From contig JAKPGL010000143.1 of assembly GCA_029550925.1 (NCBI GenBank), positions 1 to 38,980 on the forward strand: a DNA stretch of 38,980 nt, written 5' to 3'. The notes under the pieces were generated by a model, which saw only the letters and a program-made list of their open reading frames with translations, made no database searches and had not been told where the DNA came from. The translations under genes were made by a program, and so were the position numbers. Positions 6,466-29,465 of the stretch are shown here, in pieces; positions within the stretch are counted from its first letter, which is position 1, and each line of letters starts with the position of its first letter. This DNA is from Planctomycetota bacterium. GTDB taxonomy: Bacteria; Planctomycetota; Planctomycetia; Pirellulales; Thermoguttaceae.

Positions 6466-6547
6466 TCCATCGGAACAGAATCGACTTTCGGAAACGAGGA
6501 GTTTAGGGAATATACATTTTTCCATTCTTTGATTGAGGGATAGAGCG

Positions 6548-6850
6548 ATGGCCAAGAGCATGAGTCTTCGACCTTTAGATGATCGTGTGGTTGTCGAACC
6601 GAAGGAAGCCGAAGAAGTTACCGCCGGCGGCATTGTGTTGCCGGACACCGCCAAGGAAAAGCCGCAACGGGGCGTGGTCATTGCCGTAGGCCCCGGTCGG
6701 CTCCTGGAAGGCGGTAAACGGGCCGAAATGGCGGTGGCCGTCGGCGATGAGGTGATCTTCGGCAAATACGCCGGCACGGACATTGAAGTGGACGGCCGAG
6801 AACTGAAAATCTTGCGCGAAAGCGACATCCTGGCCAAGATCGTCCAATAA
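6548..6850 (+). CDS. groES: GroES co-chaperonin
   Basis: A 100-aa protein of standard GroES length. It caps the GroEL ring during the folding cycle. The [12 protein letters not shown] opening and the mobile-loop region [16 protein letters not shown] are clear, and it ends in the family-typical block around [18 protein letters not shown] chose ATG 6548 (GAGG about 9 nt upstream) over an in-frame TTG at 6533. The order groEL-groES-groEL is unusual, since most bacteria have groES first. One GroES would have to serve both ring proteins here unless another copy exists elsewhere. Confidence 0.96.
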
Positions 6851-7001
6851 CCGACGATGGAAGGTCGGGGTCGGCGGTGGAAGAGGCGCTTGTTGGGTTT
6901 GTCTGCCGGTCCGGACGCCGTTTGGCGGGGCTGGCGCAGAGGAAAAGAAAACGAGTATCCAGGTAGTTTGGTGATTTCCTTATTCAGGAAGGGACGCGAC
7001 C

Positions 7002-8618
7002 GTGCCCAAGCAACTACTCTTTGAAGATCACGCCCGGCAGCGGTTACTCCGGGGAGTGGAAAAACTGGCCGATGCAGTGGCCGTTACCCTGGGACCTACC
7101 GGGCGAAACGTCATCTTGGACAAATCGTTCGGCGGCCCCACGGTTACCAAAGACGGCGTAACCGTGGCCAAGGAAATCGAACTGGAAGATCGGTTCGAGA
7201 ACATGGGCGCCAAGCTGGTCAACGAGGTCGCCTCGAAGACCAGCGACATTGCTGGCGACGGCACCACGACGGCCACCATCCTGGCCCGCGCCATCTACAA
7301 GGAAGGCCTTCGGCAGGTAACCGCCGGGTCCAATCCGACGGCCATCCGCCGCGGGATCGACAAGGCCGTCCAGGCTGCGGTCGAACACTTGCAGTCGATG
7401 GCGAAAAAAGTAACCAGCAAAGAAGAAATCGCCCAAGTCGGCGCCATTAGCGCCAATAACGATGTGGAGATCGGCAAGCTGCTGGCCGACGCGATGGAGG
7501 CCGTGGGCAACGACGGCGTCATTACCGTCGAAGAAGGTAAAACCGCCGAAACCACCTACGAGCGCGTCGAAGGAATGCAGTTCGACAAAGGGTATCTGTC
7601 GCCCTACTTCATCAACCGGGCGGAAACGATGGACTGCTACCTGGAAGACCCTCTTATCCTCCTCCATGAAAAGAAGATCAGCAGCCTTCGGGAGCTGATC
7701 CCCATTTTGGAGAAGGTGGTCCAGAGCGGTAAACCTTTGCTCATCATTGCCGAGGACCTCGAAAACGAACCGCTGACGGCCCTGGTGGTCAATAAACTGC
7801 GGGGCGTATTGCCCTGCTGTGCGGTAAAGGCCCCCGGCTTTGGCGATCGGCGGAAGGCCCTGCTGCAAGACATCGCCATCTTGACCGGCGGCACGGTGAT
7901 CAGCGAAGACCTAGGCATTAAGCTGGAAAACCTCACGTTGGAGCAGTTGGGCCGGGCCAAAAAGATCACCGTGGATAAAGATTCCTGCACCATCGTGGAA
8001 GGCGGCGGCAAACCGTCGGAAATCAAAAACCGCATCGAACAACTCAAACACATGATCGAAACCACCGACAGCGACTACGACCGCGAAAAATACCAAGAGC
8101 GGTTGGCGAAACTTTCCGGCGGCGTGGCGGTGGTGAAAGTAGGTGCTCCCACGGAGGCGGAGATGAAGCAGAAGAAGGCCCGGATTGAAGACGCCCTGCA
8201 CGCCACCCGAGCCGCCGCCGAAGAAGGCGTCGTGCCCGGCGGCGGAGTCGCCTTGCTCCGGTGCCTCGAAGCGGTCGAGGCGGTTCGCGCGTCGGCCCGC
8301 GGCGACGAAAAGATCGGCGTCGATATCGTTCGCGAGGCCCTCAAGGCCCCGCTCAAGCAGATTGCAGAAAATTGCGGTCTGGACGGCGCCGTGGTTGTCG
8401 AAGAGGTTCGGGAAAAGGGCGGCAACATCGGCTTCGACGCCAACACCGGCAAATATGTGGATATGTTCAAGGCAGGCATCATCGACCCGGTCAAAGTGGT
8501 GCGGGCGGCGCTGGAAAACGCCGCCAGCATCGCCGCGTTGATGCTCACGACCGAAACCCTGGTTACCGACCTCAAAAAAGAGGACAAAGAAAAGGAAGTG
8601 GAAGGAGCGGTCCGATAA
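7002..8618 (+). CDS. groEL: GroEL-type chaperonin, second copy without Gly/Met tail
   Basis: A 538-aa group I chaperonin starting at GTG, preceded by GGAAGGGA. The N-terminus is canonical ([20 protein letters not shown]), with GDGTTTATI from residue 85 and [13 protein letters not shown] near residue 410. In contrast to the first copy, the C-terminus lacks any GGM repeat and ends in the charged run [14 protein letters not shown]. The GGM tail projects into the folding chamber and influences cycling in E. coli GroEL, so this copy may handle clients differently. The 151-nt gap after groES shows no convincing promoter, so co-transcription is possible. A strong terminator follows the gene. Confidence 0.97.
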
Positions 8619-8671
8619 CTCCTTGGGGACCAGCTCTCCGTCCAAGAGAAGACAGATCGATGGTAAAACAC

Positions 8672-8712
8672 AAGCGGGCCACCGGCGAGGCAACACGCCG
8701 TGGCCCGCTTTT
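8672..8712 (+). terminator. Rho-independent terminator after groEL2
   Basis: An 11-bp perfect stem (8672-8682 with 8700-8710), extended inside by GGCG/CGCC (8684-8687 with 8696-8699), is followed by TTTT. It lies about 55 nt after the groEL2 stop and ends the chaperonin cluster. Confidence 0.85.
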
Positions 8713-8778
8713 GTGCCTCCGTACGGGACACTCGTGGTTTAAGAAATCCTGCCTCTTGAAACATCGCTCTAGGAAGGG

Positions 8779-8809
8779 ATTGTACAAAGTTTTCAGGGCG
8801 ACGTACAAT
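8779..8809 (+). promoter_or_regulatory. Candidate dnaJ promoter with an inverted repeat over -35 and -10
   Basis: TTGTAC (8780-8785), an 18-nt spacer and TACAAT (8804-8809) could act as -35 and -10. The two boxes are arms of an exact inverted repeat, ATTGTAC and GTACAAT, so the same bases could bind a dimeric regulator. The sequence does not resemble CIRCE. The leader that follows holds a small hairpin, TCCTCT-TCGGT-AGAGGA (8874-8890). Confidence 0.4.
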
Positions 8810-8985
8810 GACGGTTTATGTCGCCCACCAAGCCCCTTTTTCCGGCCCAAAACGCCGAACAAAAGAGAAAACGTCCTCTTCGGTAGAGGAAGAAGGTGCT
8901 ATGGTTAAATAGACGCTGGGCCGAGAGATCGACCCAGAACAAACCCTTCCTTGAGGCCGTGGTAAACCGACCGGCCATGAGGACC

Positions 8986-10149
8986 ATGGCAACGAAACGC
9001 GATTATTATGAAGTCTTAGGCGTTCCGCGGACGGCCGGAAGCGAGGAGATCGCCCAGGCCTATCGCCGTTTGGCCCTCAAGTACCATCCCGACCGCAATC
9101 CCAACGATCCGGAAGCGGTCGAAAAGTTCAAAGAAGCCTCTGAGGCGTTTGAAGTTCTTCACAATCCGGAGAAGCGGCAGATTTATGACCGATACGGCCA
9201 TGCGGGCCTGGAGGGCGGCGGCGCGCCGCAATTCCGCGACATCGAGGACATCTTTGACGCCTTCAGCGACATCTTTGCGGACAGCATTTTCGGCGACCTG
9301 TTCGGCGGTTTTCGGCAACGGCGGACCAGGCGTCGGGCGCAACCGGGGGCGGACGTCCGCTGCGATCTGACGATTGATCTCCTGGAAGCCGCCCAAGGAA
9401 CAACGAAAACCATCCGTTTCCAACGGCGGGAAATATGTCCCCATTGCAACGGCTCCGGCGCGAAACCCGGAACCCAACCCGAATCGTGCCGCTATTGCGG
9501 CGGAGTGGGACAGATCGTCCAGCGATCCGGTTTCATTTCCATCCAAACCACCTGTCCGGCTTGCCGAGGCGCAGGTGTGGTGATTCGAGAAACCTGTCCC
9601 GAATGCCGCGGCGAGGGGACGGTGCAGAAGCAGGTCCAGCGGGAAGTCCGTATCCCGCCCGGCGTCGATACCGACAGCCGATTACGCCTCGAAGGCGAAG
9701 GGGATGTCAGCCTGCGGGGCGGCCCCCGCGGCGATTGCTATGTCTTCATTACCGTGCGGGAGCATCCGTTTTTCCGCCGCGAAGGCCAACATCTGATCTG
9801 CCAAGCGCCGATCAGCTATTCCCAGGCGGTTCTGGGAGCGACGATCCAGGTGCCCACTTTGGAAGGACATGTAGAGTTGACCATTCCTCCAGGCGTCCAT
9901 AGCGGCGAAGTGTTTCGGCTTCGAGGACGCGGGATGCCCGATCCCCGCTATCGAGGCCGGGGGGACCTCTTGGTCGAAGTCGTTATCGACGTGCCGAAAC
10001 GAATCAGTGCCGAACACGAACGCCTCTTGCGGCAATTGGCCGAGATCGAACACGCCGAGGTAACCCCCCGGCGCAAATCCTTCCTGGAAATGCTGAAGAA
10101 CTTGTTCACTCCTAGCGCCGATTCGGAAAGCAAGGAGAAGAAACGATGA
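8986..10149 (+). CDS. dnaJ: Chaperone DnaJ
   Basis: A 387-aa Hsp40 co-chaperone that delivers clients to DnaK and stimulates its ATPase. The J domain opens with KRDYYEVLGV and has HPD at residues 34-36. A short Gly/Phe-type linker with Asp and Phe (about 75-110) follows, then four zinc-binding CxxCxGxG repeats (Cys151/154, 168/171, 190/193, 204/207) and the C-terminal substrate domain. The start is uncertain: ATG 8986 matches the family, but its GAGGA is only 2 nt away, whereas an in-frame GTG at 8896 follows AGAGGAAGAA and would add 30 residues. The gene overlaps grpE by 4 nt (ATGA), suggesting translational coupling. No dnaK is in the window. Confidence 0.95.
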   Translation: MATKRDYYEVLGVPRTAGSEEIAQAYRRLALKYHPDRNPNDPEAVEKFKEASEAFEVLHNPEKRQIYDRYGHAGLEGGGAPQFRDIEDIFDAFSDIFADSIFGDLFGGFRQRRTRRRAQPGADVRCDLTIDLLEAAQGTTKTIRFQRREICPHCNGSGAKPGTQPESCRYCGGVGQIVQRSGFISIQTTCPACRGAGVVIRETCPECRGEGTVQKQVQREVRIPPGVDTDSRLRLEGEGDVSLRGGPRGDCYVFITVREHPFFRREGQHLICQAPISYSQAVLGATIQVPTLEGHVELTIPPGVHSGEVFRLRGRGMPDPRYRGRGDLLVEVVIDVPKRISAEHERLLRQLAEIEHAEVTPRRKSFLEMLKNLFTPSADSESKEKKR

Positions 10150-10937
10150 AGAAAGAAAAACATTCGGCCAAAGCAGGTCCTGAAAAACAGGCGTCCGAGA
10201 AAGAAGCGCATCCTTCGGAGCAAGGAAGGGCGCCGACGCCTGAAACGAGCGGGGTAGAGGCGACCGGCGCGGCCGGGTCGGCTGGGGTCGAAGCGGCCGG
10301 GTCGGTTTCGGCGGCCTCTGCGCCGCAGGCGTCGTCGCTGGTTGAGGAGTTGGAGCAATTGCGTCGGGAGTTGGCCGCCGCTCAAGAGGCCCGCACTCGG
10401 GCCGAGGCCGAACTGGCCGAGGCCAACCAGGCAAAACTCCGCGCACTGGCTGAGCTGGAAAACTTCCGCCGTCGCACGGCGCGCCAACTCGAAGAAGATC
10501 GCCGCTACGCCCTGTTCCCCTTGGTTCGGGACTTGCTGCCGGTCTTGGACAATCTCCGTCGGGCGGTGGAGTCGGCCCAAACCAGCCAGGACGCTTCCGC
10601 GCTATTGGCGGGCGTCCAGTTGGTCCATAAACAACTTCAGGACGTACTTCAGCGCCATCATTGCGTGGAGATCGAGGCCCTGGGCGCGGCGTTCGATCCT
10701 CATCTGCACGAGGCCGTCGGCCAGACGCCAACCCAGGAACATCCGCCCGGGACGATCATCCATGTGGCTCAGGCGGGATTTCGACTCCACGACCGGGTGG
10801 TTCGGCCCAGTTTGGTGGTGGTCGCCGCCGCCCCGGCGGCGCCGTCTCCGGAGGAACCCAAAGGCGATCATCCTCCGTCATCGGACGAAGGCCCGCAGCC
10901 TGCGTCGCCTCCTACGGACGGTTCTTCTTCGAGCTGA
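10146..10937 (+). CDS. grpE: GrpE nucleotide exchange factor
   Basis: A 263-aa protein, longer than the usual roughly 200 because of extensions at both ends. GrpE releases ADP from DnaK. Residues 1-65 are low complexity and rich in Ala, Gly, Glu and Ser. The long coiled coil follows (about 65-120, with ALAELENFRRRTARQLEEDR). The conserved beta domain begins near FDPHLHEAVGQTPTQEHPPG and ends with the VRPSLVVV block. The last 40 residues are Pro/Ser-rich. The start codon overlaps the dnaJ stop, with AAGGAGAAG just upstream. I see no defect in the core. Confidence 0.93.
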   Translation: MKKEKHSAKAGPEKQASEKEAHPSEQGRAPTPETSGVEATGAAGSAGVEAAGSVSAASAPQASSLVEELEQLRRELAAAQEARTRAEAELAEANQAKLRALAELENFRRRTARQLEEDRRYALFPLVRDLLPVLDNLRRAVESAQTSQDASALLAGVQLVHKQLQDVLQRHHCVEIEALGAAFDPHLHEAVGQTPTQEHPPGTIIHVAQAGFRLHDRVVRPSLVVVAAAPAAPSPEEPKGDHPPSSDEGPQPASPPTDGSSSS

Positions 10938-11029
10938 ACAGGAACATAACACCCCTTGGACGTGGAAGGATTTCGTCAACATTCGTTTTGCTTCTCAGAG
11001 AGTTCGAACAAACCCAAAGGAGCGGTCCT

Positions 11030-11305
11030 ATGCCAACCTATGAATATCAATGTGAAGCGTGCGAACATCAGTTTGAGCTTTTCCAATCGATCACTGCCAA
11101 ACCGGAGCGGCGATGTCCGCGGTGTGGTCGGCTGAAGTTGCGTCGGCTGATCGGTCCGGGAGCGGCCATCGTGTTCAAAGGGTCCGGTTTTTACAAGACC
11201 GATTACCGGAGCGAATCCTACAAGAAAGCCGCCGCCGCCGACAAATCCAACGGCAACGGCGCCGATACCACCAGCTCCAAAAAAGAAAAAACCGCCAAAA
11301 AGTAA
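11030..11305 (+). CDS. FmdB-family zinc ribbon protein
   Basis: A 91-aa protein starting at ATG 11030, with AAAGGAG 7 nt upstream. The N-terminus MPTYEYQCEACEHQFELFQS is the typical FmdB/CxxC_CxxC_SSSS opening, with zinc ligands Cys8/Cys11 and Cys29/Cys32. The GSGFYKTDYR segment is also characteristic. The tail is Lys/Ala/Ser-rich and probably disordered. The family's biochemical role is poorly defined; FmdB was named as a putative regulator of an amidase/formamidase gene. It lies 92 nt after grpE and could be part of the same transcript. Confidence 0.88.
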   Translation: MPTYEYQCEACEHQFELFQSITAKPERRCPRCGRLKLRRLIGPGAAIVFKGSGFYKTDYRSESYKKAAAADKSNGNGADTTSSKKEKTAKK

Positions 11306-11660: not shown

Positions 11661-13772
11661 TCAGATGCGGTCCAGGGCGTCGATCCAGCGGAGCAGTTCG
11701 GTCATTTCCTCGGCGGTCAGCTCTCGCACTTTTTCGCCCACGTTTTTCACCACGACCGGATATTTGGCCGCTCGAAGCCTTTCGACAAACGCGTCCACCT
11801 GGGCCGCTCGTTGATCTTTTTCTGGCCGGGCGATGTAACACGAGAGGGGATAGGCCGGGTCGTTTTCCGGCGGGGGGAACATGATGGGTTCCGGGCACAG
11901 GGCGGCCACGGCCCGAACGCCCTCCCGATGCTGAAACGCCGCCAAACAGGCAAACCCAGCGCCGGCCCCGTCGCCAATGGCTGCGATGCGATTGGGATCC
12001 ACATGGTATCCGGCCCGCAGGTTTTCCAAAAGCTTTTTCACCAGTTCGATCTCTCCGGGTTGCCATTGGGGCGGATTGCCGTGGGCCGCCTTCGGTGCGA
12101 CAAAAATCAGGTCATACGCATCGCACAGCGGTTTCCACCGGGCGATCAGTTCTTTTGGATCGACTGCGGTTCTGCCGTGCATCCAAAAGACCACCCCATA
12201 GGAAACAGCCGGATCATAACTATCGGGCACATAGGCCCAGACTTCGTGCGGCATTTCGGGCACTTTCAGTTCTACGGCGCCTACCTTCAGCCCTTCAGGA
12301 ACCGGTTGGGGTTTACCGGCGATCCGGGCCGGCGGCAATGCACCCGGGGGTATATCTTCTGGGAATACACCGAGAGTTACTTGTTGTTTCTGTTCCTGTC
12401 CGTCTCGGCGTAAGACCAATTCCACCGCCTGGTTCGGCTCGTGATCCGCCGCCAATTGGCGAAGACCGGCCGCATCTTTTACCTCCTGACCGGCAAACCG
12501 GACGATCAGATCGCCCGGTTGCACGCCGGCCTTACTGGCCGGGCTATCCGGATACACATACCGCACCACCACGCCCGGCGGATGCTCTGCCGGTTGGCTC
12601 CGCATGGGCAGGACGCCCAAAAACGGCCGGACATAAGGGGCGATTTCCGCGGCCAGTTCCACTTCGCACTCGATACGGTCTTTGCCCCGCTGCGCCACTA
12701 GCCGGAGTTTGTCCCCGGCGTATCGTTTACTGATTTCTTCTTTGAGTTCGGCGGCTCGGCTGATGGGGCGATCATTCACCTGGATGATTTTGTCCCCGGC
12801 TTTCAGGCCCGCTTTGGCCGCCGGCGAGTTCGGCCGACTGCTGCCGATCTCCGCTTCGCTGATATGGAGAGCGGGACTTTTGAACTGGATGCCCAATAGG
12901 CCGGGTTTCAGGTCTTTGCCTTCTTTCAGGCGGGGCAATACCTGGAGGATGTCCTCCAGCGGAATGGCAAAGCCGATGCCCGAATCGTACCACTCCACGC
13001 CGGCGAGTTCGGAGCCGCCCTGGGGCGACAGCGGCGCCAGCAGCCCCAGCACCCGGCCGTGGATGTCCACGAGCGGCCCGCCGTAATTATTGGGCGAGAC
13101 GGCGGCGTCGGTCTGAATGGCTTTTCCCCAGATACGGCTTATCGCGCTGACGATGCCGACGGTCGTATTGGGTTTTTGTTCGCCGAAAGCGCGTCCAACG
13201 GCGATGGCCCACTGGCCCACCCGTATCTGGCCCCGAGGCGCAGCCTCAGGGACCGGCAACGGTTTGTCCACCTCGATCTTCAAGAGACTGAGCATCCGAT
13301 TGGTGTCGTTGGCCACCAGTTTGGCCGCCTTGCGCGTGCCGTCTGGCAGTCGCACCAGGATCGAACTGGGCTTATTGACGAAATTGAACGCACTGGAAAC
13401 GATATACCCTTGGGGATCGACCACCAGACCGGTCGTTGGTCCAGTGCCGAAAAGCACCTGTCCCACCTTTTCCAGGCCGCCGATGGTTTCGATCATCACC
13501 ACGGAAGGAGCCACCCGATCCACCGCCGCCTGAAACGCCTTCTGCTCCAGCAGTTCCAGGTCTTCTTTCGGCGTCTCGGTGGTCGGCGGTGTTTGACCGG
13601 CGTCTTGTTTCGCTGGGGCGGTCGGGACTTTCGGCGGCGTCGGTTCGGCGGCCCAAAGAATCGGACAGGTCGCCAGCCAAACAGCCAGGCCGCCCGCTCC
13701 AATTACCGCCCACACGGTTGCTTTCATTCCCCCGAACCTATGGGATTTTGGTTGCCAAAATGTTTTTCTCAT
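11661..13772 (-). CDS. Secreted pseudoprotease: dead trypsin domain, two PDZ domains, degenerate alpha/beta-hydrolase domain
   Basis: A 703-aa protein. The N-terminus carries a signal-like hydrophobic segment (about residues 17-42) and a Pro-rich linker. An HtrA-like trypsin domain follows (about 75-285), but all three catalytic positions are changed: the His of the usual TNNHV is Phe129 (SSAFNF), the Asp before LALLKI is Met160 (RMLSLLKI), and the Ser of GNSGGP is Tyr230 (PNNYGGP). Two PDZ domains follow (about 292-375 and 384-468). Residues 500-703 resemble a PHB-depolymerase or esterase-type alpha/beta hydrolase (VWAYVPDSYDP, VVFWMHG), but the nucleophile elbow reads GDGAG (600-604), with Gly602 where Ser is expected. 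Both enzyme domains therefore look inactive. The ATG overlaps the upstream stop (ATGA); an in-frame ATG at 13727 would give a neater signal peptide. A binding or adaptor role is inferred. Confidence 0.85.
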   Translation of the reverse strand: MRKTFWQPKSHRFGGMKATVWAVIGAGGLAVWLATCPILWAAEPTPPKVPTAPAKQDAGQTPPTTETPKEDLELLEQKAFQAAVDRVAPSVVMIETIGGLEKVGQVLFGTGPTTGLVVDPQGYIVSSAFNFVNKPSSILVRLPDGTRKAAKLVANDTNRMLSLLKIEVDKPLPVPEAAPRGQIRVGQWAIAVGRAFGEQKPNTTVGIVSAISRIWGKAIQTDAAVSPNNYGGPLVDIHGRVLGLLAPLSPQGGSELAGVEWYDSGIGFAIPLEDILQVLPRLKEGKDLKPGLLGIQFKSPALHISEAEIGSSRPNSPAAKAGLKAGDKIIQVNDRPISRAAELKEEISKRYAGDKLRLVAQRGKDRIECEVELAAEIAPYVRPFLGVLPMRSQPAEHPPGVVVRYVYPDSPASKAGVQPGDLIVRFAGQEVKDAAGLRQLAADHEPNQAVELVLRRDGQEQKQQVTLGVFPEDIPPGALPPARIAGKPQPVPEGLKVGAVELKVPEMPHEVWAYVPDSYDPAVSYGVVFWMHGRTAVDPKELIARWKPLCDAYDLIFVAPKAAHGNPPQWQPGEIELVKKLLENLRAGYHVDPNRIAAIGDGAGAGFACLAAFQHREGVRAVAALCPEPIMFPPPENDPAYPLSCYIARPEKDQRAAQVDAFVERLRAAKYPVVVKNVGEKVRELTAEEMTELLRWIDALDRI

Positions 13773-14848
13773 GGTTTTCCCGTTGTTGGCAAAGGATCCG
13801 AAGGGGCCTTCAATTTCACCTCCACAAGTTCCAAGCCCCGAAGCAGGGTCAATTTGATCTCCGCATCGTATTCGATAAACTCCAGTTCCTTTTGAAGCAT
13901 CTGGCAGGAGTGGATGAGCCGATCGTTCAATAGGATGATCAAATCATCCGGTTTGACGCCGGCCTGGGCGGCGGGCGAACCTTCCCGCACCCAATCCACA
14001 TACGGCGGCGTCCGGGGCAGCAGATCCGGCACCAGCACAATCCCTAGCCGAGCCAGTTCCAAACACCGCTGCGGCCGAGGCGGCGATTCCGGCTCCGGTT
14101 TGGCCACCATGCCGCCTTTGGCGATAATCTGTTCGACCGAAGGTCGCAGAGCGTCGATCGGCACGGCGTAGTTCAGCCAGGTGTTATTCAACGTATTTCG
14201 CACTTCTTTGCCGATCATGCCCACCAGTTCGCCCCGGTAGGTTACCACCGCTCCGCCGGCGGCCCCGGGGTTATTGGTAACGGCGTCGATCACATAGACC
14301 GGGCCGTTGTAAAGCGTTTCAAACGCCCCCCGTCGGGCCGACAGATGCGTCCGTACGGAGACGATCCCCTGCTGGACGCTGACCGGCTCGTTGCCCATCG
14401 CCACCTTAAACAGGTTGCTGAAGGCCAGGATGCGTGCAGCCGGTTCTACCTCCACCGCCTCTTCCAGCTTGAAATGGGGCAGGTGTTCCTCCTCGATTTT
14501 TAGCACCGCAATTTCCAGCCGGGGATCGGCCCCCAAAAGCTTGGCCTGGAAACGGCGTCCGTCATAGAGCACCACGGTAATTTCGTCCGTGTCCAGCACG
14601 TAGCTCCAGACGGTCAAAATATGTCCATGCTCGGAGATGAGCATCCCGCTCTGATATTCTTCCAGGCCGCGGAAACCGCCGGCGCCGTAGATTTTGACCA
14701 TTTTCGGCTGGACTTCGGCGATCGTAGCGGCGATGCGGCTTGTCGTTGCCGCCGGCGCGCCGACGGCAAACCAGACGGCCGCAAGCCATACCGCCCCGCC
14801 GACGCCCCGTCGCAGTACGATCCAACAACTATCCGCACTTCGTCTCAC
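13769..14848 (-). CDS. Secreted pseudoprotease: dead trypsin domain with C-terminal PDZ
   Basis: A 359-aa protein starting at GTG, with AGGAG 9 nt upstream. A signal peptide is likely (hydrophobic run about 17-34). The trypsin-like domain (about 38-245) keeps HtrA landmarks, but the catalytic positions are Ser82 instead of His (GHILTVWSYV), Glu112 instead of Asp (DPRLEIAVLKI) and Ala197 instead of Ser (NPGAAGGA). Glu for Asp alone might be tolerated, but loss of both His and Ser should abolish proteolysis. A PDZ domain occupies about 265-345. The gene starts 12 nt after the active homologue and overlaps the next pseudoprotease by 4 nt, so the three should be produced together. Confidence 0.85.
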   Translation of the reverse strand: MRRSADSCWIVLRRGVGGAVWLAAVWFAVGAPAATTSRIAATIAEVQPKMVKIYGAGGFRGLEEYQSGMLISEHGHILTVWSYVLDTDEITVVLYDGRRFQAKLLGADPRLEIAVLKIEEEHLPHFKLEEAVEVEPAARILAFSNLFKVAMGNEPVSVQQGIVSVRTHLSARRGAFETLYNGPVYVIDAVTNNPGAAGGAVVTYRGELVGMIGKEVRNTLNNTWLNYAVPIDALRPSVEQIIAKGGMVAKPEPESPPRPQRCLELARLGIVLVPDLLPRTPPYVDWVREGSPAAQAGVKPDDLIILLNDRLIHSCQMLQKELEFIEYDAEIKLTLLRGLELVEVKLKAPSDPLPTTGKP

Positions 14849-14860
14849 CGATTTGGTCTC

Positions 14861-17173
14861 CTAAGAAGAACTGTTTTCTTGGATTGAAGGTTTGGAAGGG
14901 GTCTTTTCTTTGGATGACTTTTCTTGAGATGATTTTTTAGCGTCCGACGGCGATTCGGAGGGTTTTTCCCCGGCCGGTTTGGTCTGAGTCGATTTTTCCT
15001 CGGCCGGTTTGGTCTCCGAAGGCTTTTCCGTTTCGGTCTTTTCTGGAGAAGGTTTTTCTTGAGGCGTCGTTTTTGGCGATTCCGCCTCTGACGGCGTTTC
15101 GGCGGCGGACTTTTCGCCTGGTTTTTCTTTGGGCGGCGCCTCTTCCGGCCATTGGCCCTTCTCAAACTCCATTTGGTTTAGCAGGAATACGCCGAAAACG
15201 ATGTCGCCGTACCGGACTTCCATCCGCTGCGGCAACCATCGGCCGTTGGTGGGCCGGTAGTCGTGGAAATAGATTTCACAAGGGTCCAGTTGTTCGTCGC
15301 CGAACAGTTCCACCAGCACCAGATGCCCTTCAGCGGGGTCGAAATAGAATCGACCTTCGACGCCGGCGTATTGACCTTCCAGTACGTCGGCAAGTCCAGA
15401 GCGGCCGAGGATCGGGGCGGTCCCCCAATAACTCACTTCGCCGAACCGGCCTGCACCCAACAGGGCCAATCGCCGCCAGAGATACAGGGCCGGGAACAGC
15501 CCGCCGCTATGCTGCGGCTCTAACAGCACACTCAAATCCGGCCCGGCCGTCCAACGCAACTGGTTGGCCCCTACCTTCATGCTAAGGCCCTGGTTCGTCA
15601 GCACCAGCTCGAACTCCGAGCCGGTGTCCAGTTTGCCCCGCAGCGTCCAATCGCCCGCATAGCCATCCACAGGGAACTTCTCTTTCCATGCCTTGAGTAC
15701 CCGGTCCCGATGGAGCTTGTTGAAATAGTAATTCGCATAACCCCGTTTGGCCTCGAAATGCTTCTTGACGATCTCCGGCATCGGCGCCGGCGCCCTCGGC
15801 ATCATTCCGGGGATAGGCGGCTGGCCTGGCTGGGGCAGGGGAATGGGGATCGGTTTAGCTGTGGGTTTAGGGGTGGGTTTGGTCGTGGGTTGTTTTTCGC
15901 TTGCAGGCTTTTCCATAGGTTGTATTTTTCCGGTCGGGGTCTTTTCCCCCGGCTTTTCTACAGAAGGTTTTTCCGCCGCAGGTTTTCCCTCAGCAGGCTT
16001 TTCTGGGGAGGGGTTCTCTGAAGCAGGCTTTTCCGCTGGGGCTTTTTCTCCGGAGGGTTTTTCAGACGAAGGTTTTTCCGGCGTTGGTTTTTCGGGGGTT
16101 GGTTTTTCTTCCGGTTTGGGCATGGGCATGGGGCCGCCCCGACGGCGTCCTTCCAGCAGTTCCAGAAGTTCATCCGTCCGATGCACCCCGGCCAGCCGAA
16201 CATGGACATCGTACCGCTGTCCCTCATGGATAAAGGAGAGCGGCACGCGCCAGCCTTTCGGATAAATGCCCAGGACGTTTTTGAAGTGATTGGGCGTGGT
16301 GATGGGCCGACCGGCAAAGGAGATGATTTCATCGTCCGGGTTCAGACCCCGTCGGTAGGCGTCGGAGCTTTCGAGGATATGATTGACAATGACTCGGCCT
16401 TTATCGTCTGAGGTAACCGTAGCGCCCAGGGTGGCGTGATCGACGATGCGTCCGCTGTGCAATTGGCCGAGGAAGTTTTTGATCTGGTTAATGGAAATCG
16501 CATAGCCGACGCCCACATTGACCCGCCCTCGCTTTTCAAACGAACCGCGCCCGTTGATCCCGATCAGTCGGCCCTTGGCGTCGAAGAGCGGACCGCCCGA
16601 ATTGCCCGGGTTGATCGAGGCATCGGTTTGGATGCAGTCGGTATATTCCAGGATGGTGCCGGCCGGCGGCTGATACCGATGCACGCCGGAGACAATGCCG
16701 TAGGTAACGGTCGGCTGGAAGTCATTGGCCAGCATGAACGGGTTGCCCATGGCGAAAACCCAGTCGCCCATCTGAACCAGGTCGCTATCGGCCATTTCGG
16801 CGGCGGGGAAATCATCGCGGCCGAAAAGTTTTATCAGGCCCACATCGCCCGTGGGGTCCAAGCCGACCACCACGGCGTCATAGACTTTGCCGTCCGGCAG
16901 ACCGCACTTCATCCAGTTGCCGCAGGGTCGGACCACGTGGAAGTTCGTCAGGGCATAGCCATCCCGGGAGATCAGCACTCCGGAGCCGCCCCCAGCCCCA
17001 TTGGGCGGAAAAATAGCCACCACCGAAGGTTTCGCTTTTTCCATGGCGGCGATCCGCTCCGCTTCGGCCTGCAACACGGCCTGCGGCGTTTCCGCCGCAA
17101 GAGCCGGCGGAGAACTTATCGTTCCAACAGCAAGCCCCAACCATCCTAAAAACCACACGGCATTTTGTTTCAT
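14861..17173 (-). CDS. Secreted HtrA-like serine protease with PDZ and E-K-P-rich linker
   Basis: A 770-aa protein with an intact triad: His79 (LTNFHVV), Asp110 (DPTGDVGLIKL) and Ser192 (NPGNSGGPL). A signal peptide ends near residue 27 (PALAAE). The protease domain spans about 30-240 and a single PDZ about 249-330. Then come about 85 residues of repeated Glu-Lys-Pro units (354-440) and a Pro-rich stretch. A C-terminal domain of roughly 230 residues (about 465-700) matches nothing I recognise, and the protein ends in a second Glu/Lys/Pro/Ser-rich tail. DegP/DegQ relatives are usually about 450 aa, so this is much enlarged. It probably cleaves misfolded or specific proteins outside the cytoplasmic membrane. 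It is the only one of three adjacent homologues with a full active site. Confidence 0.9.
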   Translation of the reverse strand: MKQNAVWFLGWLGLAVGTISSPPALAAETPQAVLQAEAERIAAMEKAKPSVVAIFPPNGAGGGSGVLISRDGYALTNFHVVRPCGNWMKCGLPDGKVYDAVVVGLDPTGDVGLIKLFGRDDFPAAEMADSDLVQMGDWVFAMGNPFMLANDFQPTVTYGIVSGVHRYQPPAGTILEYTDCIQTDASINPGNSGGPLFDAKGRLIGINGRGSFEKRGRVNVGVGYAISINQIKNFLGQLHSGRIVDHATLGATVTSDDKGRVIVNHILESSDAYRRGLNPDDEIISFAGRPITTPNHFKNVLGIYPKGWRVPLSFIHEGQRYDVHVRLAGVHRTDELLELLEGRRRGGPMPMPKPEEKPTPEKPTPEKPSSEKPSGEKAPAEKPASENPSPEKPAEGKPAAEKPSVEKPGEKTPTGKIQPMEKPASEKQPTTKPTPKPTAKPIPIPLPQPGQPPIPGMMPRAPAPMPEIVKKHFEAKRGYANYYFNKLHRDRVLKAWKEKFPVDGYAGDWTLRGKLDTGSEFELVLTNQGLSMKVGANQLRWTAGPDLSVLLEPQHSGGLFPALYLWRRLALLGAGRFGEVSYWGTAPILGRSGLADVLEGQYAGVEGRFYFDPAEGHLVLVELFGDEQLDPCEIYFHDYRPTNGRWLPQRMEVRYGDIVFGVFLLNQMEFEKGQWPEEAPPKEKPGEKSAAETPSEAESPKTTPQEKPSPEKTETEKPSETKPAEEKSTQTKPAGEKPSESPSDAKKSSQEKSSKEKTPSKPSIQENSSS

Positions 17174-17210
17174 GGTTTCGCCTTCATCCCTACTCGGATT
17201 GGGATTGCAC

Positions 17211-18407
17211 TTATTGGACTAATTTCATGTCGCCCAGCAGCAGATGGTCGCCGATGTCCGCATCCTGGCCGAAATCTACCAGGATCACCAGCCGCCGCAC
17301 GCCGCTAATATCCAGGTCGATCGGTTTGGGAGGCTGGGTGCCGGAGACGGTCTCGTCCAGCAACACCTTGTCGTCGCCTCGGATGACCAGTTGGACATGG
17401 CCGGCCGGGCGTATCTGATCGTCGATGCCCACGACGGCCTGTAACCGCCGGAACGCCCGAGGCAACCGGTAGGTCATTTCGGTTCGGCTGTGGATGGCCA
17501 ATCCTTTTGCATATTTTTTGCCGCCCAACTGGATGGGCCGAGGTTCCAAGGCCCGGTCTTTGCGGGGGGCAAAAAACTCGGCCTGGCTTGCCGGCGTCTC
17601 TGCCGGACCGAAAAACGGCGTCCAACGCACGGACTGCGGCGTCAGATCGCTCAGATACACAATTTTACCTTCCGAAAAGTCCAGCCGAACCAATTCTGCC
17701 AACGGCGTCGCCCCGCTCAGTCCCGCCGGACTGGTCCATCGGAGGGTCTCGCCCTCCAAAACCACCTTCTGCACATACCACTGGTTGCCGTTTACGTCGT
17801 GCAATACGCCCACCGAGGCGGGCAGGTTGCGCCCCTCCGGACGCCGAAACACGAGCCCGAAAATTCGGCTCCGTTTTACCGGAATCCGTTCCCGATCCAG
17901 TTCAAATTGCACTGTCTCGGCGGTTACGTCGTGGATGACGCCCCGGTGGTAGTCCAGCCCCTGATCGGTCCGCAGCACCAGAATATCGGTATCGGTTTTG
18001 CTTTCTAGCAGGCGTTTCCAGGCGGGGCCGAGGGCTTCGGTTTCCGGTTGCAAGCGGACCCACGCCACGTCCCGTCGGGTACACTCCAAGGGCGCAGTCG
18101 AACCGGCCGGTTGCAGACGCACCTTTCCGTCCTGCAATAGGAATTCTTGCACCGTCGCCCGTGCGCCATCGACCAGTTGCACCAATACTGCGCCTCCGGG
18201 TTTTACCGCCGGCGGCGTTTTCGGTGCGAGTTCCGCCACCCGTTCTAAGGGCGTCTGTACCGGCCCACTGCCGGTCTGCAAGCCGATCGCTTGTTCCGAC
18301 AGGGCGGTTAATGCGCCGCTGTGTACCTGACCGTCCAGCGTGCGCACCTCGACCTCCAAAGCGCCCAACGCGATCATTCCGTAGCAAAGGCAAAGGGTGT
18401 ATCCCAT
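17211..18407 (-). CDS. Secreted NPCBM-domain protein
   Basis: A 398-aa protein with a short signal-like start (YGMIALGA). Residues 1-260 form beta-rich segments I cannot assign. Residues about 265-398 look like an NPCBM/NEW2 domain (novel putative carbohydrate-binding module): YAKGLAIHSRTEMTYRLP, then AVVGIDDQ and a C-terminal strand with DHLLLGDMKLV. This module is often fused to glycosidases; here no catalytic domain is present. AAGGGAG precedes the ATG. The gene lies 37 nt before the active HtrA-like protease gene and 38 nt after its upstream neighbour, so it belongs to the same transcription unit. Binding of a cell-surface glycan is inferred. Confidence 0.8.
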   Translation of the reverse strand: MGYTLCLCYGMIALGALEVEVRTLDGQVHSGALTALSEQAIGLQTGSGPVQTPLERVAELAPKTPPAVKPGGAVLVQLVDGARATVQEFLLQDGKVRLQPAGSTAPLECTRRDVAWVRLQPETEALGPAWKRLLESKTDTDILVLRTDQGLDYHRGVIHDVTAETVQFELDRERIPVKRSRIFGLVFRRPEGRNLPASVGVLHDVNGNQWYVQKVVLEGETLRWTSPAGLSGATPLAELVRLDFSEGKIVYLSDLTPQSVRWTPFFGPAETPASQAEFFAPRKDRALEPRPIQLGGKKYAKGLAIHSRTEMTYRLPRAFRRLQAVVGIDDQIRPAGHVQLVIRGDDKVLLDETVSGTQPPKPIDLDISGVRRLVILVDFGQDADIGDHLLLGDMKLVQ

Positions 18408-18445
18408 CCGAACGTTTCTCCCTTCAAGGACGTTTTGCGAGCAGG

Positions 18446-19786
18446 TTAGGGGGACTTTTTCGTTTCGGTCGATTCGGCCAATTTTCGGAAGTATTGTTCG
18501 ATTTTGTCGCGGTATTGGGCGGGAAAATCGCGGCCGATCTGCTGAAGGACTTCTTCCCGCTGTTTGGGCGGCAGGTTGCCCCAGCCGCTGCCGGAGCCAA
18601 TCTCTCGCTTTTCCACTTCGCCGGGGCCTTTGCCGCCAATGATTCGGCTATCGGGCGCCGGGCTGGTGGAGCGGATGGTGCGTCCGCCGGCCGAGCCGCC
18701 GCCGCCCTGCTGTTGCTGTTGCTCTTCCAGGCGTTTGATGATCTTGTCGAGGTCTTCGACGATTTTATCTTCGATTTGGCGGACCTTCGGCCCAGCCCGG
18801 TGCAACCCGAGCCGACGCTCGACGTCCTTCATTCGTCGGGCAATGTGATCTAATGTTTCCTCCTTGAGATTTTTGAGGTCTTCCTGCATGAGGGTGGCTA
18901 GGGCCGTGTATCGGCGCGGACAACGGTCCGGTTCCCGCAGGAGGGCCTCCAGCCGCCGAAGCCCCTCCTCCTGACGGAGCAGAAAGTAATTGGCCGCCGA
19001 TTGATAGAAGAGCAGGGTGGCCGGATCGGCCACGTCATCCGTCTTTAAATCGCCGAGCATCTCCAGGGCTTCGTCGTAGAGCATTTCGTGGACCAACCAG
19101 CGCCCGTAAAGCAGCCGCAAATTGGCCGCCATATAGGGATCGGTCTTCGGGTCCTTCAGCCAGGGAAAACTAGGCAGCACGAGGTGGATCCGAGGCACAG
19201 AACATAATTTCACTAATTCTGCCGCCTGCCCGTCCACCAGGGCATAGCTCAACGCCGTCCGTAGGAGCAGGTCCATACCGCTCAAGCTGTTCAAGTCCAC
19301 CGCCCAAAGCTGCTCAATTTTAGACCGCATGTCGGCCGGCACAGATCGACCATCCAGCCAGGCAAACACTTTGGCTCGCACCTCCTCGGCCCGAGGCGGC
19401 TGCCAGGGGGGCAAGGGAGGCAACTTCGGCTTGGGCGGCGCCGAGGGCGGCGTCTTGCCCGGAATCACCTTCTCGATCCGCCCTGGTGTAGGAACCTCCT
19501 GCTTTTCTTCGATGATTTTTACTTTGGGTGTTTTCTCTTCGCTCGGCTTGGGTTGTTCGGCGGGTTCTTTTGGAACTCCCGGGGGTTTTTCAGTCGGTCT
19601 TTCGGCTGGCGGAACAACTTTTTCCACCGGGCCCGGTGGAGGGGCCTTTTCCTGCTCGGCCAAAAGCCCGGTTTGGCTTTCCGAGGTTGCTAGAGTGTGG
19701 GACCCGGCTAGCACCTGGCCGCCGCCGACTGCTAACAACCCCATCCCCGCCGCTAGCGCAACGAACGGGACAAATGTGCGTTTCAT
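18446..19786 (-). CDS. Secreted Pro/Glu/Lys-rich protein of unknown function
   Basis: A 446-aa protein. A signal peptide is clear (hydrophobic residues 7-27, ending QVLAG). Residues about 45-135 are dominated by Pro, Glu and Lys, similar to linkers in other products of this cluster. The middle (about 140-345) is helical and may contain TPR-like repeats. A coiled-coil stretch ending in a Gln run (EEQQQQQGGGG) follows. The C-terminus has the block LPPKQREEVLQQIGRDFP and then IEQYFRKLAE. From memory, similar blocks end other secreted proteins in VWA/DUF4175-type clusters. The start is 2 nt after the previous stop and its ribosome-binding site lies inside the previous gene, so translation is probably coupled. 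Confidence 0.75.
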   Translation of the reverse strand: MKRTFVPFVALAAGMGLLAVGGGQVLAGSHTLATSESQTGLLAEQEKAPPPGPVEKVVPPAERPTEKPPGVPKEPAEQPKPSEEKTPKVKIIEEKQEVPTPGRIEKVIPGKTPPSAPPKPKLPPLPPWQPPRAEEVRAKVFAWLDGRSVPADMRSKIEQLWAVDLNSLSGMDLLLRTALSYALVDGQAAELVKLCSVPRIHLVLPSFPWLKDPKTDPYMAANLRLLYGRWLVHEMLYDEALEMLGDLKTDDVADPATLLFYQSAANYFLLRQEEGLRRLEALLREPDRCPRRYTALATLMQEDLKNLKEETLDHIARRMKDVERRLGLHRAGPKVRQIEDKIVEDLDKIIKRLEEQQQQQGGGGSAGGRTIRSTSPAPDSRIIGGKGPGEVEKREIGSGSGWGNLPPKQREEVLQQIGRDFPAQYRDKIEQYFRKLAESTETKKSP

Positions 19787-19788
19787 GG

Positions 19789-21660
19789 CTACCGGTTCCT
19801 CCCTGTTTCGATGTCTCGAGTGATTTTATGGATGCGTTGTTCCTGCTCGGCCAATTTTTTCAAGGCGGCCTGGAGTTCCGGCACTTCGGTGGACTGGTCG
19901 CCCTGCACGAGCCGACGATAACGCTCGGTCCGATTGTTGACGCGCAGTTGCATGGCCTTGATCATTTTCAGTTCGGCGATCAGATCCACCAGAGCCGGGT
20001 CCTGCTGCTGGCCGCCTTGCTGGCCCTGCCCGCCTTGTTGCTGTTGTTGTCGCTCCTTTTGCGCCCGTTGCAACGCCTCGATCATCTCCTCCAAGGCGGC
20101 GATGATGTCCAACTCGATCTGTTGGGTGATCTGGTTGACCTTGGCCTGGGCCAATCGCTCGGCCACCTGCTCCATATCTTCCCGGACCTGCGTAGTGGCT
20201 TCGATGAAGGCCACCGCAGTGCCGTCTTCCTTCAATAGGGCCAACGCCTTCTCTGCCTCCAGAACGATTTCCAATTCTTTGCTGCTCAGTCGGCTGGCCT
20301 GGATTTCATGGCTGTAGGTACGTTCCCATTCCGGCACTTGATCCAGCCGAACCGTCCCTTCATAGACCTCCCGCTGCATCTGGAGCATCTTCTTGAACCG
20401 GGCTTCCAGCACGGCCAAAAGACGGCGGATTTCCTCCTCCCGTAGTTGCCGAAGGATTTCTTCCAGTTCTTTCTTGGCTTGTCGGAGTTCCTCCAGGGCC
20501 TTTTCTTGTTCTTGGATGGCCCCTTCACGTTGGGCCTTTCGGAGTCTTTCCTCGGCTTCTCGCATCCGGCGTTCGGCTTCTTCCAACCGACGGCGCACCG
20601 GATGGCCTTCCTGCTGAGGCTGACCTTGACCTTGCCCTTGCCCTTGGCCTTGGCCCTGACCTTGACCTTGCCCTTGCCCCTGGCCTTGCCCCTGACCTTG
20701 ACCTTGACCTTGCCCCTGGCCTTGACCTTGACCTTGACCTTGCCCCTGGCCTTGACCTTGCCCTTGACCTTGGCCCTGACCTTGCCCTTGACCTTGGCCC
20801 TGACCTTGACCTTGACCTTGGCCCTGACCTTGACCTTGACCTTGGCCCTGGCCTTGACCTTGACCTTGCCCCTGGCCTTGGCCTTGGCCTTGACCTTGAC
20901 CTTGGCCCTGGCCTTGACCTTGCCCTTGACCTTGTTGACCGGGTTTAGAGCCTTCGCCAGGTTTACCGGATTGGCCCTGACCCTGCTGGCCTTGGCCGCT
21001 TCGGCCAGCTTCTTCATTGCGTTGGATACGACGTGCCAGGTCGCCGGTCTGTCGGCCCAGTTCTTTTTGTTCCTCGGCCAGTCGGCCCATATTGCCGCCG
21101 CCAGCGGTGCGCCCTTGGATACCCGACTCGCTCTTGATCAGCCGATTGATCTCCCGCAGATACGCCTGGTGTCGGGCGATTTCCGAGGCCAATTGGTCCC
21201 CGCGGGTTTCACTCAGCAAGAGTTCCAAAAGAGCTGCCAGGTCGGCTTTCAATTCTTTTTGGTTATCCAGGGCGTCGGCCAGTTTTTCTTCTTTGAGCAG
21301 TTGGACGAGCCGTTCAAATTGCACGTTGATCAGCTCTTCGTTGCTCATTTGGACGGCTTTTCGCAAGAGGGCCGCCCGGCGCGGGTCTTGGGAGGCCGTC
21401 AGCTCGGCCATGCGCAGAAGGACCTGTTCGAGCCGACGGTACCGTTCGGCCAAGGCTTGCTGCTCGGCGGAAAGTTTTTCCGCGGGGCGGGCCGATTGGG
21501 ACCCGTCGGCCGGAGCGTCGGAAGAAGCCTCTTTCTTTTCTGGTCCGGCGGACGGATTGTTTTCTTTGTCAGCCTGTCCGCTTTGCGCCCACGGGCTGCT
21601 CCAGACCAGCACCGAAGCGGCCAGCAGCAGCACAGTCCACCCTAGGCAACTTCGCTTCAT
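19789..21660 (-). CDS. Secreted coiled-coil protein with 52 tandem Gly-Gln dipeptides
   Basis: A 623-aa protein. A signal peptide is likely (MKRSCLGWTVLLLAASVLVW...WAQ). Residues 60-220 are predicted helix with many charged heptads. Residues 241-347 are GQQ followed by 52 uninterrupted Gly-Gln pairs. Residues 355-430 are strongly coiled-coil (Glu/Arg/Lys-rich) and the rest is helical with a second, short Gln/Gly stretch. It follows the DUF4175-like gene. In Alphaproteobacteria, DUF4175/TIGR02302 proteins carry a Gln/Gly-rich region in the same chain, so this gene may be the detached C-terminal part of that family. GAGGAG lies about 9 nt before the ATG. Confidence 0.8.
   Translation of the reverse strand: MKRSCLGWTVLLLAASVLVWSSPWAQSGQADKENNPSAGPEKKEASSDAPADGSQSARPAEKLSAEQQALAERYRRLEQVLLRMAELTASQDPRRAALLRKAVQMSNEELINVQFERLVQLLKEEKLADALDNQKELKADLAALLELLLSETRGDQLASEIARHQAYLREINRLIKSESGIQGRTAGGGNMGRLAEEQKELGRQTGDLARRIQRNEEAGRSGQGQQGQGQSGKPGEGSKPGQQGQGQGQGQGQGQGQGQGQGQGQGQGQGQGQGQGQGQGQGQGQGQGQGQGQGQGQGQGQGQGQGQGQGQGQGQGQGQGQGQGQGQGQGQGQGQGQGQGQGQGQGQPQQEGHPVRRRLEEAERRMREAEERLRKAQREGAIQEQEKALEELRQAKKELEEILRQLREEEIRRLLAVLEARFKKMLQMQREVYEGTVRLDQVPEWERTYSHEIQASRLSSKELEIVLEAEKALALLKEDGTAVAFIEATTQVREDMEQVAERLAQAKVNQITQQIELDIIAALEEMIEALQRAQKERQQQQQGGQGQQGGQQQDPALVDLIAELKMIKAMQLRVNNRTERYRRLVQGDQSTEVPELQAALKKLAEQEQRIHKITRDIETGRNR
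20620..20940 (-). repeat. Hexanucleotide repeat tract encoding poly(Gly-Gln)
   Basis: 321 bp made of 6-bp units of the form GGN-CAR on the minus strand. Gly codons alternate among GGT, GGC and GGG, and Gln among CAA and CAG, with no stop in any of several overlapping frames. The mixture of synonymous units argues that the dipeptide is kept at protein level, while the tandem form allows slippage. Confidence 0.95.
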
Positions 21661-21712
21661 GACCTGTTCTCCTCATTTTGGTAGGGAACCATCCTCGTAC
21701 TTCCTTTGTATT

Positions 21713-24292: not shown

Positions 24293-24409
24293 AACTACTC
24301 GCTAGGAAATATCAAAAGGTGATGTTTTAGGTCCTAGTTCAACTCGTTCGATCCCGTTTTCCGTTGCCATCGTTACGCTGCGATTCCTCCGGAAGGAGCA
24401 TTTCGAGTT

Positions 24410-29211: not shown

Positions 29212-29247
29212 AGCGAACTCGTTTTGGTGAACTCAGGTTGCCAATGT

Positions 29248-29372
29248 AACGCCGACTGTTAGTCGGCGCTTAGCTCAGCCTGGACAGGCTAAGCTACGTA
29301 ACGCCGACTGTTAGTCGGCGCTTAACTCAGCCTGGACAGGCTAAGTTACGTAACGCCGACTGTTAGTCGGCG
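29248..29372. repeat. 52-bp-period tandem repeat of paired hairpins
   Basis: Three exact copies of CGCCGACT-GTT-AGTCGGCG begin at 29250, 29302 and 29354. Between them lie two copies of a second hairpin, AGCCTG-GA-CAGGCT (29277-29290 and 29329-29342). The outer arms of that second hairpin are TAGCT/AGCTA in one copy and TAACT/AGTTA in the other, a paired change that keeps the base pairing. There is no coding potential and no T tract for termination. It sits within the minus-strand cluster, between the DUF58 and BatA-like genes. Confidence 0.9.
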
Positions 29373-29374
29373 TC

Positions 29375-29402
29375 GGAATACCGTCTGGCCAGACGGTGTT
29401 CC
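29375..29402. repeat. 28-bp near-perfect palindrome
   Basis: GGAATACCGTCTGG (29375-29388) is followed directly by CCAGACGGTGTTCC (29389-29402). Thirteen of 14 pairs match and the odd one would be a G-U pair if the plus strand were transcribed. It abuts the tandem hairpin array and ends 63 bp from the DUF58 stop codon. Confidence 0.85.
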
Positions 29403-29465
29403 AAAGGGACTGCGTTCTGTTCGGAACCGCCGCTGCCTATGCGGCGCGGCGTTGTTTCTGTTTTC

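Follow-up and report, generated by a model that had tools for sequence, protein, structure and literature searches.

The window analysed here is a stretch of 38,980 nucleotides from a planctomycete of the Thermoguttaceae (contig JAKPGL010000143.1, positions 1 to 38,980), and on its reverse strand lie three adjacent, co-directional HtrA-like genes, which we call H1, H2 and H3. H1 (14861-17173, 770 aa) encodes an HtrA-like protease with an intact catalytic triad. It consists of a signal-peptide-like start, a Trypsin_2 domain (residues 63-206), a PDZ domain (~246-327), a linker rich in Pro, Lys and Glu, a LolA-like domain (residues 456-690, positions 15104-15808) and a low-complexity tail. H2 (13769-14848, 359 aa, GTG start) contains a Trypsin_2 domain (67-211) and a single PDZ domain (268-347), and H3 (11661-13772, 703 aa) a Trypsin_2 domain (114-244), two PDZ domains (291-373 and 402-456) and an esterase-like domain (~505-703); H2 and H3 are the first and second pseudoprotease of the set. 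A 12-nt gap (14849-14860) separates H1 from H2, and H2 and H3 overlap by 4 nt (13769-13772). The coordinates, strand, lengths and spacing, as listed with a first-pass annotation of this DNA, were exact. All three proteins have significant Pfam matches to the Trypsin_2 and PDZ profiles, and all three fall under the 416.2-bit cut-off of TIGR02037 (Do/HtrA), with 215.2 bits for H1, 116.3 for H2 and 217.3 for H3. Signal peptides were judged by eye. The second PDZ domain and esterase-like tail of H3, the LolA-like tail of H1 and a run of genes upstream of H1 go beyond that annotation.

The first-pass annotation had read the triad of H1 as His79, Asp110 and Ser192 and the residues at the same positions as Ser82, Glu112 and Ala197 in H2 and Phe129, Met160 and Tyr230 in H3. 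We re-read these letters from the translation, in a register set by HMMER alignments to DegP and DegQ, and obtained the same residues. On the reverse strand they are encoded within 16598-16939 for H1 (His79 16937-16939, Asp110 16844-16846, Ser192 16598-16600), 14258-14605 for H2 (Ser82 14603-14605, Glu112 14513-14515, Ala197 14258-14260) and 13083-13388 for H3 (Phe129 13386-13388, Met160 13293-13295, Tyr230 13083-13085). Near the His site of H3 HMMER places a gap, and Phe129 is the ungapped reading. Misalignment of the dead Ser sites was ruled out, as the flanking NPGxxGG and SPxNYGG motifs lock the register.

The replacements are specific to each family and common to its orthologues. A His-Asp-Ser triad was present in all 156 complete rows of H1 and in none of the 167 rows of H2 or the 163 rows of H3 (identical segments were merged, from 181 to 160 for H1, 192 to 169 for H2 and 184 to 163 for H3; segments under 100 bits were dropped, 4 H1 and 2 H2 rows were incomplete, and near-identical rows from one genome fetched twice may persist). 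In H3, the His site was Phe in 133 rows and His in none, the Asp site Met in 98 and Asp in none, and the Ser site Tyr in 162 and Val in one. In H2, we observed Ser (143), Asn (10), Thr (6), Gly (6) or Gln (2) at the His site, Glu (93), Asp (40) or other residues (34) at the Asp site, and 13 residue types at the Ser site (Ala 120, Gln 12, Gly 9, Pro 7, Tyr 5, Ser 3, others 11). The triad loss described in the first-pass annotation needs a qualification for the H2 family: only the His site is lost in every member, the Asp site being still acidic in 133/167 and the Ser site still Ser in 3/167. The loci were selected through H2 or H3 matches, and those numbered L138-L217 were found through peptide patterns that included the dead-Ser motif of H2, which biases the Ser-site counts of H2 to the dead form. 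A full triad was also absent from 52 H2 rows and from loci L218-L277, both found without this motif. One locus (L265, genome G072) was counted as H2 though the H1 and H3 matches of its genome were generic. As a same-genome control, all eight other HtrA-like genes in which the three sites were covered read His-Asp-Ser; three further ones aligned incompletely, and a fourth was left unscored.

We considered whether H2 and/or H3 might retain a different catalytic mechanism based on non-standard residues. In favour of this, no part of H2 is better conserved than its former active-site stretch, the Tyr of H3 is nearly invariant and conservation of Lys52 in H2 reaches 0.98; against it, the H2 Ser site varies widely and no His is common to the whole H2 or H3 family, and we regard such a mechanism as very unlikely. 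A His triad located elsewhere in the two proteins is disfavoured by the same lack of a family-wide His: the best conserved columns in the wide alignments reach 0.76 in H2 (H76) and 0.40 in H3, though H76 is 0.92 conserved within the 64 rows of alignment A4. This argument rests on sequence, and predicted structure covers H2 and not H3. The row sets for the His columns and for the 12-mers described below overlap the set of 52 H2 rows.

The first-pass annotation had argued for selected pseudoproteases and not decay, and had proposed dN/dS as a check. In three same-genus pairs, dN/dS was 0.034-0.064 in the protease domain of H2 and 0.019-0.054 in that of H3, compared with 0.022-0.043 in the protease and PDZ region of H1 (Nei-Gojobori; dS was mostly ~1 or >1, so these values are rough). 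Within H3, the ratio was higher for the PDZ pair (0.11-0.16) and the esterase-like tail (0.07-0.12) than for the protease domain. H2 formed one group (support 100/100) in a tree of 73 domains, as did H3 (100/100), and H1 formed a single group with weak support (47/89); seven other HtrA genes of the window's genome fell outside the H2 and H3 groups. To judge from this tree, the dead copies are old families and not recurrent recent losses. Ordinary decay of tandem duplicates, which the loss of catalytic residues from both copies might suggest, is hardly credible: both frames are open, H2 and H3 each form one old group that is widely retained, dN/dS is far below 1 and the replacement Tyr is nearly invariant. 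We rejected decay on conservation, tree and dN/dS, and the main inference of the first-pass annotation is supported in this respect. Purifying selection acts on both H2 and H3, probably to preserve work that is not catalytic.

The distribution of conserved residues gives some indication of what this work may be. The best conserved 12-mer of H2 is the former L1 stretch (residues 188-199), and the best conserved 12-mers of H3 are residues 260-271 and 226-237 (the loop names L1, L3 and LD are those we take to apply by homology). These stretches are consistent with a pocket that may still bind. By contrast, L3 of H2 and LD of H3 are ordinary, as are the PDZ domains, so that conservation does not favour regulation through the neighbour loops. 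Because the pocket stretches are the best conserved and the neighbour loops are not, we lean towards substrate binding.

A bound ligand of another kind, for example a metal, was also considered. MamO provides the model: it is a dead HtrA domain turned into a metal-binding scaffold, according to the text available from PMC4794232, and the conserved H76 of H2 could be taken as a similar feature. However, MamO uses two surface histidines, and H2 and H3 show no di-His signature, with protease-domain His columns in the wide alignments no better than those given above. On the MamO model NF040961 (cut-off 800 bits) H2 scores 43.1 and H3 27.3 bits, and the Pfam families listed at E <= 0.1 for the two proteins include no TauE domain. 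By score, domain and residues, H2 and H3 are not MamO. A MamO-type metal site was rejected for lack of a matching His signature, and repurposing for such a ligand seems very unlikely.

As a check, the first-pass annotation had suggested alignment to DegP-type structures. This was borne out for H2, whose predicted fold (mean pLDDT 85.1) is DegQ/DegP-like (4ynn, Z 26.7, 276 aligned, rmsd 14.4), with a protease part close to 2z9i (Z 25.2, rmsd 2.3 over 190); H3 was compared by sequence alignment only. The C-terminal residues 456-690 of H1 were modelled by AF2 with a mean pLDDT of 90.3. A search of the PDB with the sequence of this tail gave nothing under E 0.5, and LolA was found instead by fold search (3bk5, Z 12.6, rmsd 4.2 over 176 residues; 3buu by Foldseek, E 3.6e-6). 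LolB came after LolA, and RseB was weaker still (Z 6.9). DUF4292, presumably a member of the LolA clan, weakly matched the H1 tails of 28/56 members (best E 2.5e-4) and not that of the window's own copy. On the predicted model, H1 appears to end in a LolA-superfamily domain, which is newly noted here.

The C-terminal domain of H3 is alpha/beta-hydrolase-like (11664-12260). It is related to PHB-depolymerase-like esterases by a profile match to LC-Est1C in the PDB (E 6.1e-14), scores 24.0 bits on PF00756 (cut-off 22) and stays under the NCBIfam cut-offs. Its nucleophile site carries Gly602 (11967-11969, GDGAG) in place of Ser, and the GxSxG nucleophile Ser was present in 0/70 orthologues. Matches of the tail profile to TAL effectors were scattered across repeats and were set aside. 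The frames of 42/163 H3 orthologues stop within 120 aa past the matched region, some of them at contig ends, and these include 20 of the 21 loci outside the class (among L239-L258), which terminate shortly after the first PDZ domain. It therefore looks as if the second PDZ domain and the dead esterase-like domain were acquired later; within the class, too, the esterase-like tail is missing from some H3 proteins.

The first-pass annotation had also proposed that gene order be compared among planctomycete orthologues, and this order is mostly kept. Among the 140 loci L078-L217 (which include some genomes twice), 111 had H1, H2 and H3 in order on one strand in separate frames, and three more had an H1-H2 fusion; the rest held one or two trio genes, many of them short or edge loci, and one had doubled matches. 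In the 60 loci L218-L277, the ordered trio was present in 52 and a fusion of H1 and H2 followed by H3 in two, L257 had all three genes in overlapping frames, and in five (L223, L227, L265, L268 and L274) the trio was not shown. Altogether five genomes, drawn from three families, have H1 and H2 fused into a single open frame (L116, L126 and L127 in f1, L244 in f64 and L258 in f60), and by eye no hydrophobic or second signal-like segment precedes H2 at any of the five junctions. The trio is also retained where its genes are dispersed: all three are present in G075, G125 and G136, and H2 and H3, the two genes looked for in G078, lie apart there. These dispersed copies keep the triad signatures of their families.

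In a sample of 60 genomes of the order (the window's own included), all three genes were present in 51, none in seven (G016, G021, G022, G026, G027, G031 and G033) and two in two (G003 and G025, in which the third falls at a contig edge). In the class, 109 of the 148 genomes have an H2 match at E <= 1e-30, and in at least one of them (G103) the match is a generic HtrA. In a phylum-wide sample 32/199 genomes matched H2 at E <= 1e-40, 21 of them outside the class, and all 32 also matched the H3 profile (weakest E 2.3e-72). Across the class, then, the trio is widespread, and outside it only a minority of the sampled genomes have it. In family f21, the 18 members shown had no H2 match (19 of the 39 unmatched class genomes are unlisted), and f25 lacks H2 as well; in the ten genomes of these families searched with the H3 profile (nine of f21, one of f25), all matches were generic. 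One genome, G044, holds a second, diverged trio copy (L128 on contig G044:C12 and L111 on G044:C33), in which the triad sites of H2 read Gly/Gln/Ser. Locus L140 lies on a contig filed as 'Candidatus Nealsonbacteria', with an H2 65% identical to that of the window; the contig looks like a mislabelled planctomycete metagenome-assembled genome.

The H1-H2 fusions and the co-retention of the genes favour joint action of the trio. Its conservation in many planctomycetes suggests that the two catalytically dead proteins assist or regulate the one whose active site is intact. The reading we prefer, and hold to be somewhat the better bet, is that H1 and the pseudoproteases H2 and H3 form an envelope quality-control set acting together, probably as mixed HtrA oligomers. 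The trio would be an old planctomycete system of one active HtrA protease and two pseudoproteases that acts, most likely, outside the cytoplasmic membrane. H2 and H3 would supply binding pockets that do not cut and that capture, present or spare substrates, and would thereby determine the targets and the timing of cleavage by H1. By analogy with LolA and RseB, H1 may use its LolA-like domain to bind or sense a ligand that is hydrophobic or modified with lipid. Physical assembly of the three proteins is probable on this evidence, and the hetero-oligomeric, substrate-capture and scaffold roles raised in the first-pass annotation remain suggestions of the same kind.

A less probable explanation, which we nevertheless take seriously, is that H2 and H3 work on their own, as homotrimeric chaperones or binding proteins without proteolytic activity, in the same envelope pathway as H1 but not in a complex with it. 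Inactive DegP retains chaperone activity, the pocket stretches of H2 and H3 are conserved without catalysis, and the dispersed genes of G075, G078, G125 and G136 show that the genes need not be linked. The five H1-H2 fusions and the nearly all-or-none presence of the trio in the order, on the other hand, point to tighter coupling.

Several observations weigh against joint action of the trio as set out above. The activity of H1 is deduced from its triad. Three of the five fusions come from a single family, and assembly error could account for them; a gene order that is inherited says little about contact, and the seven order genomes that lack the trio may go back to one loss. Seven further genomes of the phylum sample match the H3 profile (E <= 1e-60) with no H2 match; most of these look like generic two-PDZ HtrAs by extent, but the match in G373 (2.2e-87) could be a genuine H3 whose H2 went undetected. 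L1 may be conserved for structural reasons. In top-residue frequency L3 of H2 is average (0.61 versus 0.59) and LD of H3 is below average (0.58 versus 0.61), and the PDZ domains of the trio are average or lower. In addition, H2 and H3 have no TauE domain, which is the route by which MamO helps MamE in the available text of PMC4794232, so this precedent is partial. This partial precedent, the ordinary regulatory loops and the inactive trypsins already known beside MoxR-vWA proteins (see below) temper our confidence in joint action and lend slightly more weight to the free-standing alternative.

The MamE/MamO pair is nevertheless a useful comparison. According to the portion of PMC4794232 available to us, MamO is a pseudoprotease required for MamE-dependent proteolysis, its own active site is dispensable, it aids MamE via a C-terminal transporter (TauE) domain, and its protease domain binds metal. 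As in the trio, one HtrA with an active site is accompanied by a retained relative without catalysis, but the trio has two dead families, altered His and Ser sites and a LolA-like domain on the active partner. In plants, Deg5 and Deg8 form hetero-hexamers in which Deg8 alone is active as recombinant protein (PMC4754418, in the text available). Deg5-Deg8 and Deg7 differ from the trio in being two partners or a single polypeptide of the chloroplast, whereas the trio comprises one active and two dead genes. With DegP, DegQ and DegS the trio shares the fold and the protease-PDZ layout, and H1 the full triad; it differs in the triad-less H2 and H3, the scores under the TIGR02037 cut-off and the LolA-like tail of H1. 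RseB/MucB are LolA-like regulators of the DegS/AlgW stress pathway and resemble the H1 tail in their LolA-type fold, but in H1 this domain is fused to the protease and the match to RseB is weak.

Upstream of the trio lies a conserved set of genes on the same strand. Ahead of H1 the order is MoxR, DUF58, BatA, open reading frames (ORFs) of 1044, 859, 623 and 446 aa and an NPCBM-domain protein, and the trio closes this long co-directional run (14861-31404, reaching up to 37890). The DUF58 protein and the MoxR-type AAA+ ATPase (29466-31404; PF01882, E 1.3e-48; PF07726, E 1.6e-64) precede the BatA/VWA protein (745 aa; PF07584, E 1.3e-11) and the 1044-aa ORF, which has a weak MG2 match (24410-29211 for both). 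The latter two ORFs overlap as listed, and the annotated start of the 1044-aa ORF is therefore probably too early. Three ORFs of 446, 623 and 859 aa (18446-24292) have no Pfam family above cut-off, and the NPCBM protein (17211-18407; PF08305, E 1.7e-28) occupies the same position in relatives; the order is conserved for all the other genes of this run as well. Of 20 upstream stretches taken from relatives, 13 contain MoxR, DUF58 and BatA, all three in this order. The stretches of L287, L293 and L296 reach BatA before ending (L293 and L296 also DUF58), and in the stretches of L285, L286, L295 and L297 none of the three was seen.

The upstream MoxR-DUF58-BatA proteins may be clients of the trio or couple the ATPase to it. 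A fuller model, which we consider possible but doubtful, is a dedicated hetero-oligomeric planctomycete HtrA machine in which a single active subunit is joined by two that are permanently dead. The inactive sites would serve as pockets for substrates or signals, the LolA-like domain on H1 would read a lipoprotein-like ligand, and the machine would be coupled to the MoxR AAA+ ATPase and the vWA proteins. If true, it would be the planctomycete counterpart of an envelope-stress protease system. Adjacent MoxR, DUF58 and BatA N-terminal/VWA genes are also found in the Bat (Bacteroides aerotolerance) clusters, whose function is described as unresolved in the available text of PMC3557215; in the window, however, a conserved run follows that ends in the HtrA trio. 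Catalytically inactive trypsin-like domains beside MoxR and vWA proteins have already been reported, in the MoxR-vWA conflict systems, which are present in planctomycetes (PMC7159879, in the parts available). In those systems, which are ternary, the trypsin-like domains are effectors and are fused to vWA proteins, whereas the trio consists of separate HtrA-type PDZ proteins adjoining a DUF58/BatA-type run. Pfam gave no vWA match in H1-H3 (the other defining components of the conflict systems were not searched for), and the terms 'DUF58' and 'BatA' are absent from the main text of PMC7159879 as available. A defence system was rejected, the PADLOC matches being weak and generic.

HtrA pseudoproteases are thus already known, and what is new here is the LolA-like end of H1, the nucleophile-less esterase-like end of H3 and the MoxR-DUF58-BatA run ahead of the trio. 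The trio was not described in the literature that we searched, most subscription papers lying beyond its reach, and the words 'inactive' and 'catalytic' do not occur in the main text, as available, of a survey of microbial PDZ proteins (PMC6411480). Two HtrA pseudoprotease families with an intact-triad partner, near-fixed replacements and a few natural fusions would permit a direct test of dead-subunit tuning. The trio also points to an uncharacterised planctomycete envelope system, and offers a handle on the MoxR-DUF58-BatA clusters.

Two further features of the window were observed. The 623-aa ORF of the upstream run (19789-21660) contains a long Gly-Gln dipeptide repeat, and the DNA of this repeat is also open over long distances in other reading frames and on the opposite strand. 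Convergent to the trio, the forward strand carries two GroEL-type genes, a dnaJ-like gene, grpE and a small zinc-ribbon gene (FmdB-like by eye) at 4813-11305; among 60 loci, only two, the same-genus L078 and L079, have dnaJ and grpE next to the trio on the opposite strand.

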